Positions 5,143 to 51,768 of a stretch of 62,812 nt of DNA are shown here, one piece after another; the first letter of the stretch is position 1; each line of letters starts with the position of its first letter. The stretch lies in the NCBI RefSeq assembly GCF_000826685.1, contig NZ_JROO01000012.1, positions 1-62,812 of the forward strand. The letters run 5' to 3'. The notes under the pieces are model-generated. The model ran no database searches. It was not told the origin of the DNA and saw only the letters and a program-made list of their open reading frames with translations. This stretch comes from Streptomonospora alba. Lineage in GTDB: Bacteria > Actinomycetota > Actinomycetes > Streptosporangiales > Streptosporangiaceae. A program made the translations under genes and the position numbers.

Positions 5143-5216
5143 CGCATCAGCGTTGATCTTGTACCTACGGTCATTGTGTGCGATCACATGTGACCGTAGG
5201 TACAAGATCAACGGGG
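5143..5216. repeat. Long palindromic element, copy 1 (23-bp arms, 17-nt loop)
   Basis: Perfect 23-bp inverted repeat with arms at 5151-5173 and 5191-5213 (left arm begins CGTTGATCTTGTACC). The 17-nt loop at 5174-5190 is TTGTGTGCGATCACATG. It is AT-richer than its surroundings. It sits between an M56 peptidase gene and the DUF2516 gene, both on the minus strand. A second copy lies at 40051-40124 with the same flanks (CGCATCAG on the left, GGG on the right). No U-tract follows on either strand, so it is not a classical terminator, though it could stop or protect minus-strand transcripts from the peptidase gene. The element class is not known to me. Confidence 0.9.
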
Positions 5217-5272
5217 GAAAGCCCGGCCGGGCCGCCCGCCGGCCGCGTTACCGACCTCCCGAGACACCACGC

Positions 5273-6214
5273 CTAGAGCGGCATGCTCCACAGCACCATG
5301 ATGGTGCCCAGCAAGGCCACCGCGGCGGAGAGCACGGCGGTGGTCTGGCGGCGGCTCAGCTGCTGGACCGGGTAGAGCAGCCGCGAGACGCGGGTGAGCA
5401 CCTCGGGTTCGTCGGTGGTCACGGCCAGGGCTCCGGCCGGGACCTGCGAGGTGCCCGAGGCGCCGAAGCGCAGCAGCGCCATCGCCAGCTCCTTGGGGGA
5501 GCGCTCGCGGCGCGCCTGGTCGTCGGCGCACATCTCGATCAGCAGGGCGACGGCGCGGTAGTAGACCTCGATCATGCGCACGTGCGGAAACGCCCGCTTG
5601 AGCGAGGAGAACGGCAGCAGCACCAGGTCGTGGCGCTGGCGCAGGTGGGCGTGCTCGTGGGCGATGACGGCGGCGAGCTCGCTGCGGTCGAGCACCTCGA
5701 GGGCGCCGGCGCTGACGACCACCTCCGAGCGCAGCACGCCGGGCAGGCAGTAGGCGGCGGCCGCGGGGTGGTCGAGGATGCGCGCGCCGGGAACCTCGGG
5801 GTCGTCGTGGGCGACCAGTCCGAGCAGGTCGTGGTGGCGGCGCCGCACGCGCAGCACCTGAACGAAGGACGCCACCAGCCCGCTGAACAGCAGCAGGGTG
5901 AGGCTGAAGGCGAGGATCACCGCCCCGACCTGCGTCGCGCCCAGTGTGGTCCCGGCGATCGTGGAGAGGTAGAGGTCGTGGGACCTCGCGTCGTCGACGA
6001 GTGCGATCAGCCCGCCCACGACGCCGCGCCCGTAGGGGGCGAGCCCGAAGGCGAGCAGGGCTCCGATGGTGGAGAAGCCCCAGGCCAGGCCGAGCACCTG
6101 CCAGACGATGACAGCCACGTAGGGGCCCCTGCGGGGCCACGAGGCTTGGCGGAACCGTGCCGCTGCCACGCAGCAGCTGACTGCGATGGCGCTGAGCAGT
6201 GCGGCACTGACCAT
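5273..6214 (-). CDS. M56 family (BlaR1-like) membrane metallopeptidase
   Basis: A 313-residue membrane protein. It has hydrophobic segments near residues 1-20, 32-60 and 92-120, then a cytosolic zinc-protease domain with HEHAH at 186-190 inside the strand LAAVIAHEHAHLRQRHD. A hydrophobic C-terminus follows (TAVLSAAVALLGTIMVLW). This is the M56 architecture. In characterised BlaR1/MecR1 systems the protease leads to cleavage of the cognate BlaI/MecI repressor. There is no extracellular penicillin-binding sensor domain, so the inducer is unknown and a beta-lactam role should not be assumed. Its start lies four bases after the BlaI-like repressor stop, which supports cotranscription and joint function. 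Confidence 0.87.
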   Translation of the reverse strand: MVSAALLSAIAVSCCVAAARFRQASWPRRGPYVAVIVWQVLGLAWGFSTIGALLAFGLAPYGRGVVGGLIALVDDARSHDLYLSTIAGTTLGATQVGAVILAFSLTLLLFSGLVASFVQVLRVRRRHHDLLGLVAHDDPEVPGARILDHPAAAAYCLPGVLRSEVVVSAGALEVLDRSELAAVIAHEHAHLRQRHDLVLLPFSSLKRAFPHVRMIEVYYRAVALLIEMCADDQARRERSPKELAMALLRFGASGTSQVPAGALAVTTDEPEVLTRVSRLLYPVQQLSRRQTTAVLSAAVALLGTIMVLWSMPL

Positions 6215-38405: not shown

Positions 38406-39791
38406 ATGGCGGCACTGCCCTGGCTGCGGGTCGACGGCCCCCGCATCGTCGACGAGCACGGAACGGCGGTGACACTGCACGGTGTGGGTCTCGGCGGCTG
38501 GTTGAACATGGAGAACTTCATCGCCGGCTATCCGGGCGCCGAGCAGCAACTGCGCGCCGCGCTGCGCTCGGCGCTGGGCGAGGAAGGCTACGCCCGCTTC
38601 TTCGACGCGTTCCTCAGCGGATTCTTCGCCGAGGCCGACGCCGCCCACCTGGCCTCACTCGGGATCGACTCTGTGCGCATCCCGGTGAACTACCGGCACT
38701 TCGAGGACGACCAGCGTCCGTTCGAACTTCGGGAAAGCGGTTTCACTCACCTGGACCGGGTGATCGGCGAACTGGCGCGGCACGGGATCTACTCCATCAT
38801 CGACCTGCATGCGCTGCCCGGCTGCCAGAACCACCACTGGCACAGCGACAACCCGACCCACGTCGCGTCGTTCTGGCAGCACCGGCACTTCCAGGACCGC
38901 GCGGTATGGCTGTGGGAGGCGATCGCCGACCGCTACCGCGACCGCCCGGAGGTCGCCGGCTACAACCCGATGAACGAGCCCGCCGACCCCACCGGCGAGC
39001 TCATCGGGCCGTTCTACGCCCGGCTGGAGCGCGCGATCCGCGCCGTCGACGCCAGGCACATCCTGTTCCTGGACGGCAACCGCTACGCCACCGACTTCAG
39101 CGCCTTCGCCGAGCCGCTGCCCAACACGGTCTACTCCACGCACGACTACGCCCTGCCCGGCATCGCGGGCGGCACCGGCTATCCGGGCACCACCCGCGGG
39201 GAGTATTTCGACCGCGCGGTGCTGGAGGAGACCTTCCTGCGGCGCACCGAATACATGCGGCGCACCCGGACCCCGGTGTGGATCGGGGAGTTCGGCCCGG
39301 TCTATCCCACCGACCGGCCGCTGGAGGAGTGGCGGCTCGCGCTGCTGGCCGACCAGCTCGACATCTACCGTGAGCACGGGGCGAGCTGGGCGCTGTGGAC
39401 CTACAAGGACATCGGGCTGCAAGGCCTGGTCCACGCGCACCCGGAGAGCCCGTACCTGCAGCGGATCGCCCCCGTCCTGGAGGCCAAGCACCGCCTCGGC
39501 ACCGACTCCTGGGGCGGCTCCGACGCGGGCGTGCGCGCGATCCTGGATCCGATCGACGCGGTGTTCGACCGCGAGTTCCCCGGATTCGATCCCTACCCGT
39601 GGGGACGCAGGCAGTTCGTCGCCGGGTTGGTACGCCACATCCTGCTGGCGGAACCGCTGGTCGAGCGGTTCGGCGACGCCTTCGCCGGCGTCTCGCCCGA
39701 GGAAGCCGAGCAGCTCGCGGCGTCGTTCCGGTTCGCCCACTGCGTCGAACGCACCCCGCTCTCCGAAGTACTGCGCGCACATCTCCTCTAG
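38406..39791 (+). CDS. Intracellular glycoside hydrolase family 5 enzyme
   Basis: A 461-residue (beta/alpha)8 glycosidase. LGIDSVRIPVNYRHF carries the conserved Arg, SIIDLHALPGCQNHHWHS the substrate His, YNPMNEPAD the acid/base Glu191 and PVWIGEFGPVY the nucleophile Glu295. There is no signal peptide, so it probably acts in the cytoplasm on sugars brought in by the adjacent ABC system, as an exo-glucosidase/mannosidase or oligosaccharide hydrolase. GAGGAGGG precedes the ATG. Specificity within GH5 cannot be told from the sequence alone. Confidence 0.9.
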   Translation: MAALPWLRVDGPRIVDEHGTAVTLHGVGLGGWLNMENFIAGYPGAEQQLRAALRSALGEEGYARFFDAFLSGFFAEADAAHLASLGIDSVRIPVNYRHFEDDQRPFELRESGFTHLDRVIGELARHGIYSIIDLHALPGCQNHHWHSDNPTHVASFWQHRHFQDRAVWLWEAIADRYRDRPEVAGYNPMNEPADPTGELIGPFYARLERAIRAVDARHILFLDGNRYATDFSAFAEPLPNTVYSTHDYALPGIAGGTGYPGTTRGEYFDRAVLEETFLRRTEYMRRTRTPVWIGEFGPVYPTDRPLEEWRLALLADQLDIYREHGASWALWTYKDIGLQGLVHAHPESPYLQRIAPVLEAKHRLGTDSWGGSDAGVRAILDPIDAVFDREFPGFDPYPWGRRQFVAGLVRHILLAEPLVERFGDAFAGVSPEEAEQLAASFRFAHCVERTPLSEVLRAHLL

Positions 39792-40050
39792 GTGTTCTGT
39801 CCCGGGGGTTGGTAACGCGGCCGGTGGATGGTTCGGGTCGGCGTCCGCCGGTTGCGGTGGGCGGATGGCCGGGCGCCTCACGGGGCGGCGAGGGCGGTGG
39901 GCGGTTCGGGGCCGATGCTGGGAGCGGTACTGGTGCCGGGCCGTGCACGCCCGATGCCGCGCCGGGGCGCGCCGGGGGAACCCGCCGCCCTTCTTCCGAG
40001 ATACGGGCTCCGGCGGGGCCGATTCGCCCGGTTCGCACCGCTCCCTCGCC

Positions 40051-40124
40051 CGCATCAGCGTTGATCTTGTACCTACGGGCACATGTGATCGCTCACAGTG
40101 ACCGTAGGTACAAGATCAACGGGG
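40051..40124. repeat. Long palindromic element, copy 2 (23-bp arms, 17-nt loop)
   Basis: Arms at 40059-40081 and 40099-40121 match copy 1 at 5143-5216, with a single arm mismatch (40079 against 40101). The loop at 40082-40098 is CATGTGATCGCTCACAG, which equals the reverse complement of the copy 1 loop at 15 of 17 positions. The flanks CGCATCAG and GGG are in the same orientation as in copy 1. It lies in the 459-bp gap between the GH5 gene and rraA; the rest of that gap shows no gene. Confidence 0.9.
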
Positions 40125-40250: not shown

Positions 40251-40745
40251 ATGACCGAGGTCTTCGCCACAGCCGATCTGATCGACGCGCACGGCGACGC
40301 GCTCGCCAGCTGCGAGACGCAGTTCGTCCGGTTCGGCGCACGCCGGGCCTTTCACGGACCGATCGCCACGATCAAGTGCCACGAGGACAACGCACTGGTC
40401 AAGGAGCAGCTCGGCCAGCCCGGCGAAGGCTGGGTACTGGTGGTCGACGGCGGCGGATCGCTGCGGACGGCGCTGATGGGCGACCTGATCGCCAAGTCCG
40501 CACAGGAGAACGGCTGGGCCGGCGTCGTGATCAACGGCGCGGTACGCGACGTCGCCGAGCTGGCCGAACTGGACCTGGGCATCAAGGCGCTGGGGTCCAA
40601 CCCGCGCAAGTCGGCCAAGACCGGCGCAGGGGTGCTGGACTCCCCCGTCGCGTTCGGCAACGTGGTCTTCGCTCCCGAGACCTGGCTCTACAGCGACGAC
40701 GACGGCATCGTCATCAGCGAGGAGAAGCTGGACGTGCCGGGGTAG
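40251..40745 (+). CDS. rraA: RraA family protein (RNase E regulator / HMG aldolase fold)
   Basis: A 164-residue Rra[24 protein letters not shown] is the N-terminal block, [47 protein letters not shown] is the conserved core, and [14 protein letters not shown] is the signature near the C-terminus. Family members bind and inhibit RNase E in E. coli; related folds are 4-hydroxy-4-methyl-2-oxoglutarate aldolases needing the R and D of GAVRD. Which role holds here is unclear. ATG at 40251 has AAGGAAG upstream. Confidence 0.92.
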
Positions 40746-50517: not shown

Positions 50518-51768
50518 ATGTCCAGTGGAAAGCGGCTCCCGCCCTCCCGCTTCCCCCTGCCGATGCGTCTGGCCGCCGCGATCCCCCTTGGCACCCTTTT
50601 CGCCGGCTCCGGCCTAGTGGGCCTGCCCGCCCCGGCGGCGGCCTCGCCCGATCCGGCGGCGCCCGTGCTCGCCTTCACCCCGGCGGCCGGCGAGGTCGAG
50701 CCGGGGGAGACCGTCACGACGACACTGAACATCGCTTCGGGGCAGGCCGAGGGCACGGTCTGCCTGTACGACCTGAGCGTGGACGGCCCGTTCGAGCCGG
50801 GCGCGATCCGGGCCACGCCGCCCACGGCCGTCGAGGTCAGCTGGAAGCCGGAGGTGTCGGCCGACATCCACGCCTCGGTCGCCTACGCCGAGGTCGAGGG
50901 GGACGAGTGCCCGGAGACGACCGAGGAACTCACCACGGCCCGCACCACCACCCCGTTCACGGTGAAGGTCCACGACCCCGAGCCGTCGCCGTCCCCGGAT
51001 CCGAGCGAGACGCCCACCCCGTCTCCGGATCCGAGCGAGACCCCGACCCCCTCCCCGGATCCGAGCGAGACGCCCACCCCGTCTCCGGATCCCAGCGAGA
51101 CACCTGATCCCTCCCCGGACCCCACCACCTCGCCCACCGCCACGCCCGATCCCACCGACTCGCAGAGCACCGACCCCTCGGCCACGAAGAGTCCGCCCGA
51201 AGAGGGCGGCCAGGAGTCCGAAGGCGACGGCGGAGACGGCGGCGGCTCTGAAGGCGGATCCGGCGACGGCGGCGGATCCGGGGGCGAGAAGTCCGGCGGC
51301 GGTGGCGACGGCGGTTCCGGAGGCGGTTCCGACGGCGGCTCCGGAGGCGGCTCCGGAGGCGGCTCCGGCAACGGAAGCGGATCGGGCGACGGCGGCGGTC
51401 CCCGCGGGGCCACGGCGCCCCCGCACAGCCCGGTGACCACCGACGACGGCCCCGGCCTAGGGGCGGACGGCCTCGCCGACATCCCCGGCCTGCCCTCGGG
51501 AGGGGACGAGCCGGACGCGCTGGAACCGGACTCCCCCTCCTCCGAAGACGGAGGGCTGGCCGATCTGCCCTCCGTGGAGCCGGGCGAGGACGAGGCCTCG
51601 CGCACCACCCAGGTCGCGGCGCGCCAGGACGCCCCCACGTCCATGGTCACGCCCGCCGTGCTGGTGCTCTTCCTGATGCTCCTGCTGCTGTTCTCGATGC
51701 CGCTCGCCCCCTCGCGGCGGGTGCGCATCGGCCCCACCTCCTACAAGGGCCGCCGCCGCAGGCACTGA
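50518..51768 (+). CDS. Repeat-rich surface protein with C-terminal membrane anchor
   Basis: A 416-residue protein. An N-terminal signal sequence ([27 protein letters not shown]) leads to a beta-rich domain of about 110 residues, with Cys pair in VCLYD and DECPE. Then come repeats of [10 protein letters not shown], then a Gly/Ser-rich stretch of about 90 residues, then an acidic part. A single helix ([20 protein letters not shown]) and a basic tail ([17 protein letters not shown]) end it. It is probably anchored by that helix with the rest outside; there is no LPXTG motif. Pro/Thr repeats suggest a wall-spanning stalk. Function unknown. Confidence 0.7.
50989..51108 (+). repeat. Four 30-bp tandem repeats in the surface-protein gene
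   Basis: Units at 50989-51018, 51019-51048, 51049-51078 and 51079-51108 encode [10 protein letters not shown] with few changes, and a degenerate fifth unit follows. The in-frame 30-bp length allows copy-number change without frameshift. Confidence 0.9.

Follow-up and report, generated by a model that had tools for sequence, protein, structure and literature searches.

Some copies of a dispersed 63-bp palindrome in three Streptomonospora species carry a centre whose orientation is opposite to that of otherwise matching flanks. Two copies lie in the window, the whole 62,812-nt stretch of contig C16 of the Streptomonospora alba genome (G000) that was analysed here (Table 1), and in both the arms consist of CGTTGATCTTGTACCTACGG and its complement, enclosing a 23-nt centre. 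According to the first-pass annotation of the window, the loop of copy 2 matches the reverse complement of the copy 1 loop at 15 of 17 positions and matches it directly at only one, whilst the outer flanks CGCATCAG and GGG keep the same orientation in both copies. A hand count confirmed the loop values, the flanks were located at exactly the coordinates given (5143-5216 for copy 1 with the same flanks as copy 2), and over the full centre 20 of 23 positions, also counted by hand, agree with the reverse complement. Alignment of further copies, scored as centre against flank, recovered both orientations in three species, and neither a fixed orientation nor a chance flank match was found.

Table 1. 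Coordinates of the repeat copies and adjoining features in the window
Feature	Position	Strand	Description
Copy 1	5151..5213	none	A-subfamily 63-bp palindrome; arms 5151-5170 and 5194-5213; centre 5171-5193
Copy 1 left flank CGCATCAG	5143..5150	+	conserved
Copy 1 right flank GGGGAAAGC	5214..5222	+	conserved
ORF with HExxH motif	5273..6214	-	motif by eye; 3' end 59 bp from copy 1
GH5 cellulase-family gene	38406..39791	+	PF00150; ends 267 bp before copy 2
Longer repeated unit containing copy 2	39788..40124	+	shared with L085, L073 and partly L095
Copy 2 left flank CGCATCAG	40051..40058	+	conserved
Copy 2	40059..40121	none	B-subfamily 63-bp palindrome; arms 40059-40078 and 40102-40121; centre 40079-40101
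Copy 2 right flank GGG	40122..40124	+	conserved
RraA-like gene	40251..40745	+	PF03737; starts 129 bp after copy 2

Anatomy and copy number of the repeat family

The repeat unit comprises 20-bp arms around the 23-nt centre, and the two window 63-mers are inverted repeats that are 95% complementary. The region of copy 2 was predicted to fold at -56.2 kcal/mol (z -6.8), better than 200 of 200 shuffles; two sub-threshold Rfam matches to microRNA hairpins in the same region were dismissed as mere hairpin-likeness. Across the S. alba genome, the arm pattern matched 59 times per strand at up to 3 mismatches, compared to 0 matches for a reversed-pattern control. A chance origin of the repeats and their orientation pattern was rejected on the basis of this control and of the flank-anchored pair scores described below. 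We retrieved 61 places, of which 57 intact 63-mers were left for scoring once L072 (one arm missing), L112 and the pair L118/L097 (split by inserted DNA) had been dropped. Every S. alba copy with both arms has a centre of exactly 23 nt, highly variable in sequence, and CGCATCAG and GGG(G) were found again beside many of them. Within an alignment of 50 rows chosen out of 221, 23 of 29 stem pairs were altered on both sides, with a covariation score of 0.346 against 0.066-0.135 when the same alignment was slid.

Copy 2 forms part of a longer repeated unit, which matched L085 (93.8% over 341 columns), L073 (92.8% over 334 columns) and, in part, L095 (90.8% over 239 columns). Two further S. alba copies, L066 and L067 (C13:93818 and C13:94512), are identical 63-mers with an older centre type, 694 bp apart and with similar near flanks. 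The same inserted DNA splits the hairpin centres of L118/L097 (C100) and L112 (C63) at about the same point, and its L118 version contains ORFs for HTH_38 and rve, IS30-like as read from those domains. Elsewhere in the window, a 30-bp tandem repeat at 50983-51407 was seen by eye to adjoin apparent Gly/Ser-rich coding repeats.

Distribution in relatives

Relatives were searched with a covariance model built from the repeats, scoring up to 150 candidates per genome. Among the candidates scored, two-strand matches numbered at least 116 in S. alba and at least 92, 74 and 65 in the Streptomonospora genomes G001, G004 and G005, respectively, whilst the congeners G002 and G003 returned no match. Counted once each, 39 places were found in G004 and about 80 in G001, a few of them not exactly 63 nt long. 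A looser pattern matched 17 of 297 genomes of the family (control matches, 0), and the exact inner arm also occurs in relatives from Nocardiopsis and others. At L194, L199, L205 and L207 of G001, a second family of near-perfect palindromes (CGAGTCTGTCTG...CAGACAGACTCG) directly adjoins the hairpin unit. Among the open-licence papers listed on actinobacterial palindromic repeats or Streptomonospora repeats, none described the repeat family, and the matches listed from the literature on template switching in bacterial hairpins included no repeat family of the sort.

Orientation of the centre relative to the flanks

Centre orientation could be scored because copies of a subfamily have common outer flanks. 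S. alba A copies read GCATCAG-arm-TCATTGTGAGCGATCACATGTGA-arm-GGGGAAAGC, and the B copies, copy 2 included, mostly keep GCATCAG and GGGG around a centre that is reversed with two base changes. Scored against consensus flanks, 12 of 27 orientable centres were inverted in S. alba (n = 57; 15 forward, 30 not orientable), 3 of 15 in G004 (n = 39; 12 forward, 23 not orientable, 1 not 63 nt) and 4 of 48, comprising two strong and two weak calls, in G001 (n = 60; 44 forward, 8 not orientable, 1 ambiguous, 3 not 63 nt). The weak G001 calls are L194 and L208, and the inverted centres of this genome include L195 and L196 plus two shorter copies, L301 and L329. The 32 flank-oriented S. alba copies comprised 16 A forward, 3 A inverted (L071, L077 and L108, whose centres once reversed are 23/23 identical to A) and 13 B inverted. 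All 13 B copies were thus inverted, making up 13 of the 16 inverted S. alba copies; since these belong to one amplified subfamily, we infer that copy 2 probably inherited its orientation.

Comparison of individual pairs gave the same picture. The cleanest is L160/L161 in G004, where 48 of 50 positions in the flanks are the same and the centre matches at 8 of 23 positions directly and 21 of 23 inverted, followed by L167/L173 of the same genome (flanks 48/50; centre 6/23 direct, 20/23 inverted). In S. alba, L103 and L108 (flanks 39/50; centre 5/23 direct, 22/23 inverted) can be aligned on both sides of the hairpin, at 78% over 364 columns, with opposite centres, and in G001 the pair L195/L203 (flanks 41/50) matches at 10 of 23 positions directly and 19 of 23 inverted. 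A unit of at least 243 bases in G004 carries both states, inverted in L161, L167 and L168 and forward in L157, L160, L163, L164 and L173. Pair counts, which cover the copy set before some later-retrieved copies joined, gave 102 concordant, 34 discordant and 6 ambiguous orientable flank pairs in S. alba (n = 142), 35, 26 and 0 in G004 (n = 61) and 87, 29 and 12 in G001 (n = 128). Pairs that were few or had near-symmetrical centres yielded 2, 3 and 2 in G005, 3, 4 and 32 in Nocardiopsis alborubida and 1, 0 and 23 in Glycomyces fuscus. An assembly artefact is unlikely, as inversions are also present in G001, a two-contig assembly. Since the flanks differ between species, each species is likely to have had at least one inversion event of its own.

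Flank trees lend weak support to repeated changes of orientation. The G004 tree (13 rows) needs 3 changes, with 7 of 10 inner branches open, and its starred branches force only 1. In S. alba (32 rows) 4 changes are needed, with 17 of 29 inner branches open and the bootstrap unsettled; here the starred branches force 2 for A-forward, 2 for A-inverted and 1 for B. We also compared five between-species loci with conserved genes on both sides, using one genome per species. At L091/L166 the centre matched at 7 positions directly and 19 inverted of 23; as the L091 flanks are B-type, replacement of the whole unit may account for this. The L070/L175 centres do not look inverted (19 direct, 12 inverted of 23), and the remaining loci gave direct and inverted matches of 11 and 6 (L293/L282), 12 and 15 (L106/L186) and 11 and 14 (L084/L187).

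Extent of the inverted segment

In S. alba, near-perfect inverted arms enclose the inverted segment and are too alike to show how much of the palindrome turned; as the arms of copy 2 are identical, a flipped centre alone and a flipped 63-bp palindrome look the same. The outer-arm variant TCTA of G001 is more informative, occupying the left arm in 44 of 47 forward copies and the right arm in 10 of 47, and in inverted copies the right arm in 4 of 4 and the left in 2 of 4 (9 of 60 copies, not orientable or ambiguous, were left out). As TCTA tends to move with the centre, the palindrome may be able to turn as a whole, although the four inverted copies are all of left flank type TTCTCC, so the comparison is confounded by descent and may reflect one lineage. 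The proposal that the interior flipped between its arms thus stands for the centre, which is inverted against the flanks, whilst the arms staying put is unproven. Arm homogenisation, which template switching would also be expected to leave behind, was apparent in S. alba, where 12 arm variants were shared against a shuffled mean of 4.1 (maximum 11), was not seen in G001 (22 against 23.2) and was not clearly raised in G004 (15 against 9.1) or G005 (11 against 6.3).

Origin of the inversions

The flips were read from sequence comparison, no inversion having been seen in progress. We lean, with somewhat better than even confidence, towards rare inversion in cis by replication template switching, followed by duplication and exchange between copies. 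On this reading, inversion would arise as a replication fork runs into the palindrome: by way of the complementary arm, the growing strand would cross to the opposite parental strand, copy the centre backwards there and then switch back, an inter-strand template switch whose product could alternatively come from arm-arm recombination in a cruciform. Both orientations would then be carried along with duplication of the unit and spread by exchange between copies. The shift of TCTA to the right arm in inverted G001 copies is not predicted by switching inside the arms.

Exchange between copies probably acts too and has spread some of the flips. In G004, one and the same centre is found in all three inverted copies, with 2-5 bases distinguishing it from those of the ten forward rows, and the 63-mers of L167 and L168 do not differ although their flanks do; a single flip combined with exchange accounts for this no worse than three separate flips would. 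The main rival takes this further, proposing that gene conversion between oppositely oriented copies swaps in an inverted hairpin without any inversion in cis, which could work because symmetrical arms pair either way. Besides L167/L168, it draws on the large number of copies per genome, on L081, whose B centre stands between A-type flanks (branch support weak), and on a G004 left flank motif that leads either into the family palindrome or into other palindromes. Set against this, in a flipped alignment the arms give no more than about 20 bp of homology per side, and the inverted L195 centre has CCGTG in common with L204-L206, which are of the same left-flank type, as expected in cis, although this is a weak point. 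Exchange alone appears a possible but doubtful source of the flips.

Other palindromes (one being GTCGAGGGTGTC...GACACCCTCGAC) follow the G004 left flank motif CCCGATTTAATCTAACTC, or one closely resembling it, at L344, L349, L350, L353, L355, L359, L360, L362, L364, L365 and L367, so that flank and palindrome there behave as exchangeable modules. If the palindrome were itself a mobile module, inserted and re-inserted both ways at a preferred site, flank and hairpin would have separate histories. Compatible with this, the flanks of 30 of 57 S. alba copies could not be oriented by the A consensus, and 17 of 30 places with the G004 left-flank motif (up to 3 mismatches) are without the hairpin; a different palindrome or a remnant occupies most of these 17, with no clear palindrome at L361, L363 and L366. 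Nevertheless, the hairpin was present at 30 of 30 G001 flank loci read (76 found), no Y1 transposase was found in S. alba, and site specificity would have to be exact to give the same junctions in either orientation, making such mobility improbable.

The first-pass annotation also offered a phase-like switch, a suggestion that found no support. Because what turns is 23-63 bp of a near-palindrome, the hairpin and its fold are left almost unchanged. Minority orientations in three species might be expected if a site-specific recombinase flipped the element as a regulated switch, but copy 2 adjoins no recombinase gene, its neighbours being the GH5 cellulase-family (PF00150) and RraA-like (PF03737) genes, and the B copies are uniformly inverted (13/13). 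A 23-nt spacer is also too short for the usual invertase synapse, and we regard a switch of this kind as very improbable. An IS110-family transposase gene (L073 1810-2868; PF01548, PF02371) does follow a broken arm: at L073:1560-2868 (contig C22 of S. alba), the right arm of a B-type copy breaks off after CAAGATC, as if the element had inserted there, and the junction CAAGATCTATTGGTTCA recurs near locus ends in Nocardiopsaceae bacterium YIM 96095 (L253 and L276; reversed in L243 and L261). The IS110 family includes the Piv invertase, as described in PMC1525189. Were an RNA-guided, Piv-like IS110-type recombinase to recognise the arms as targets and invert the DNA between them, which we consider equally far-fetched, the repeats would be many small invertible elements spread genome-wide.

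Genomic context and putative function

Repeat sites in S. alba lie preferentially between convergent genes. Among 52 sites classified with a codon-based caller, which miscalls short genes, 28 were between convergent genes, 17 tandem and 7 divergent; by these heuristic calls, the convergent share exceeded that of other gene pairs (28/52 vs 14/108, p 1.8e-7) and 61 of 73 facing 3' ends fell within 200 bp of the repeat. This set leaves out both window copies, L027, L066, four broken places and one site uncalled on one side. The caller placed copy 1 as convergent, yet a minus-strand ORF, judged by eye, starts on its left, and both window copies sit between same-strand genes. With an older caller, convergent, tandem, divergent and uncalled contexts numbered 10, 7, 0 and 43 in G001, 14, 6, 0 and 15 in G004 and 11, 6, 1 and 6 in G005. 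This placement fits bidirectional 3'-end hairpins or REP-like elements that may be kept out of promoters. The hairpin probably either acts as a bidirectional 3'-end or terminator-like element or is tolerated selfish DNA; in both cases the orientation of its centre would hardly matter. A stable hairpin, as predicted for the copy 2 region, is shared with intrinsic terminators, whereas no T-tract was seen by eye after the stem beside either window copy.

Comparison with known systems

REP and BIME elements, as described in PMC3733652 and PMC1525189, are dispersed intergenic palindromes at 3' ends and between convergent genes and are targets of IS110 elements. The Streptomonospora palindromes are likewise dispersed and intergenic, at 3' ends and convergent pairs, but the unit is 63 bp rather than the 20-40 bp given for REP in those accounts, and it lacks a GTAG/GGAG tag at the stem foot, GTAG lying inside the stem and the flanks being CATCAG and GGGG, or variable. 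PF01797, the Y1 (RAYT) transposase domain, had 0 matches in the S. alba draft (97.5% complete) and was detected in 5 of 14 control genomes. A GTAG REP mobilised by RAYT was therefore rejected on length, tag and transposase, the location alone agreeing.

Inversion of a spacer with the stem kept has been described in rRNA hairpins, where loop inversions by template switching include bacterial cases and one actinobacterial example (PMC8794818), and in yeast inverted repeats (PMC8604942). In these accounts a typical RNA-hairpin loop has 4 nt (7-8 in some), and 2-5 bases change in the yeast inversions, whereas the Streptomonospora centre is 23 nt with 15-17 positions changed, and its inversion recurs within a repeat family. 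The parallel drawn in the first-pass annotation with hairpin flip-flop in chloroplast genomes is apt: small inversions there span 5-50 bp between inverted repeats of 11-24 bp (Kim and Lee 2005, cited in PMC12928735), a range that takes in the arms and centre described here (20 and 23), and in both a segment flips relative to its flanks. The Streptomonospora case differs in that the repeat is bacterial, dispersed and multi-copy, and many of its copies carry one and the same inverted form. By analogy with these systems, the geometry fits spacer inversion between short inverted repeats, which may proceed by inter-strand template switching or arm recombination. Our analysis documents an actinobacterial palindromic repeat family and, inversion at short inverted repeats being usually seen as isolated cases, its dozens of copies per genome with scorable flanks in several species constitute a natural assay of the rate and route of such inversion in bacteria.
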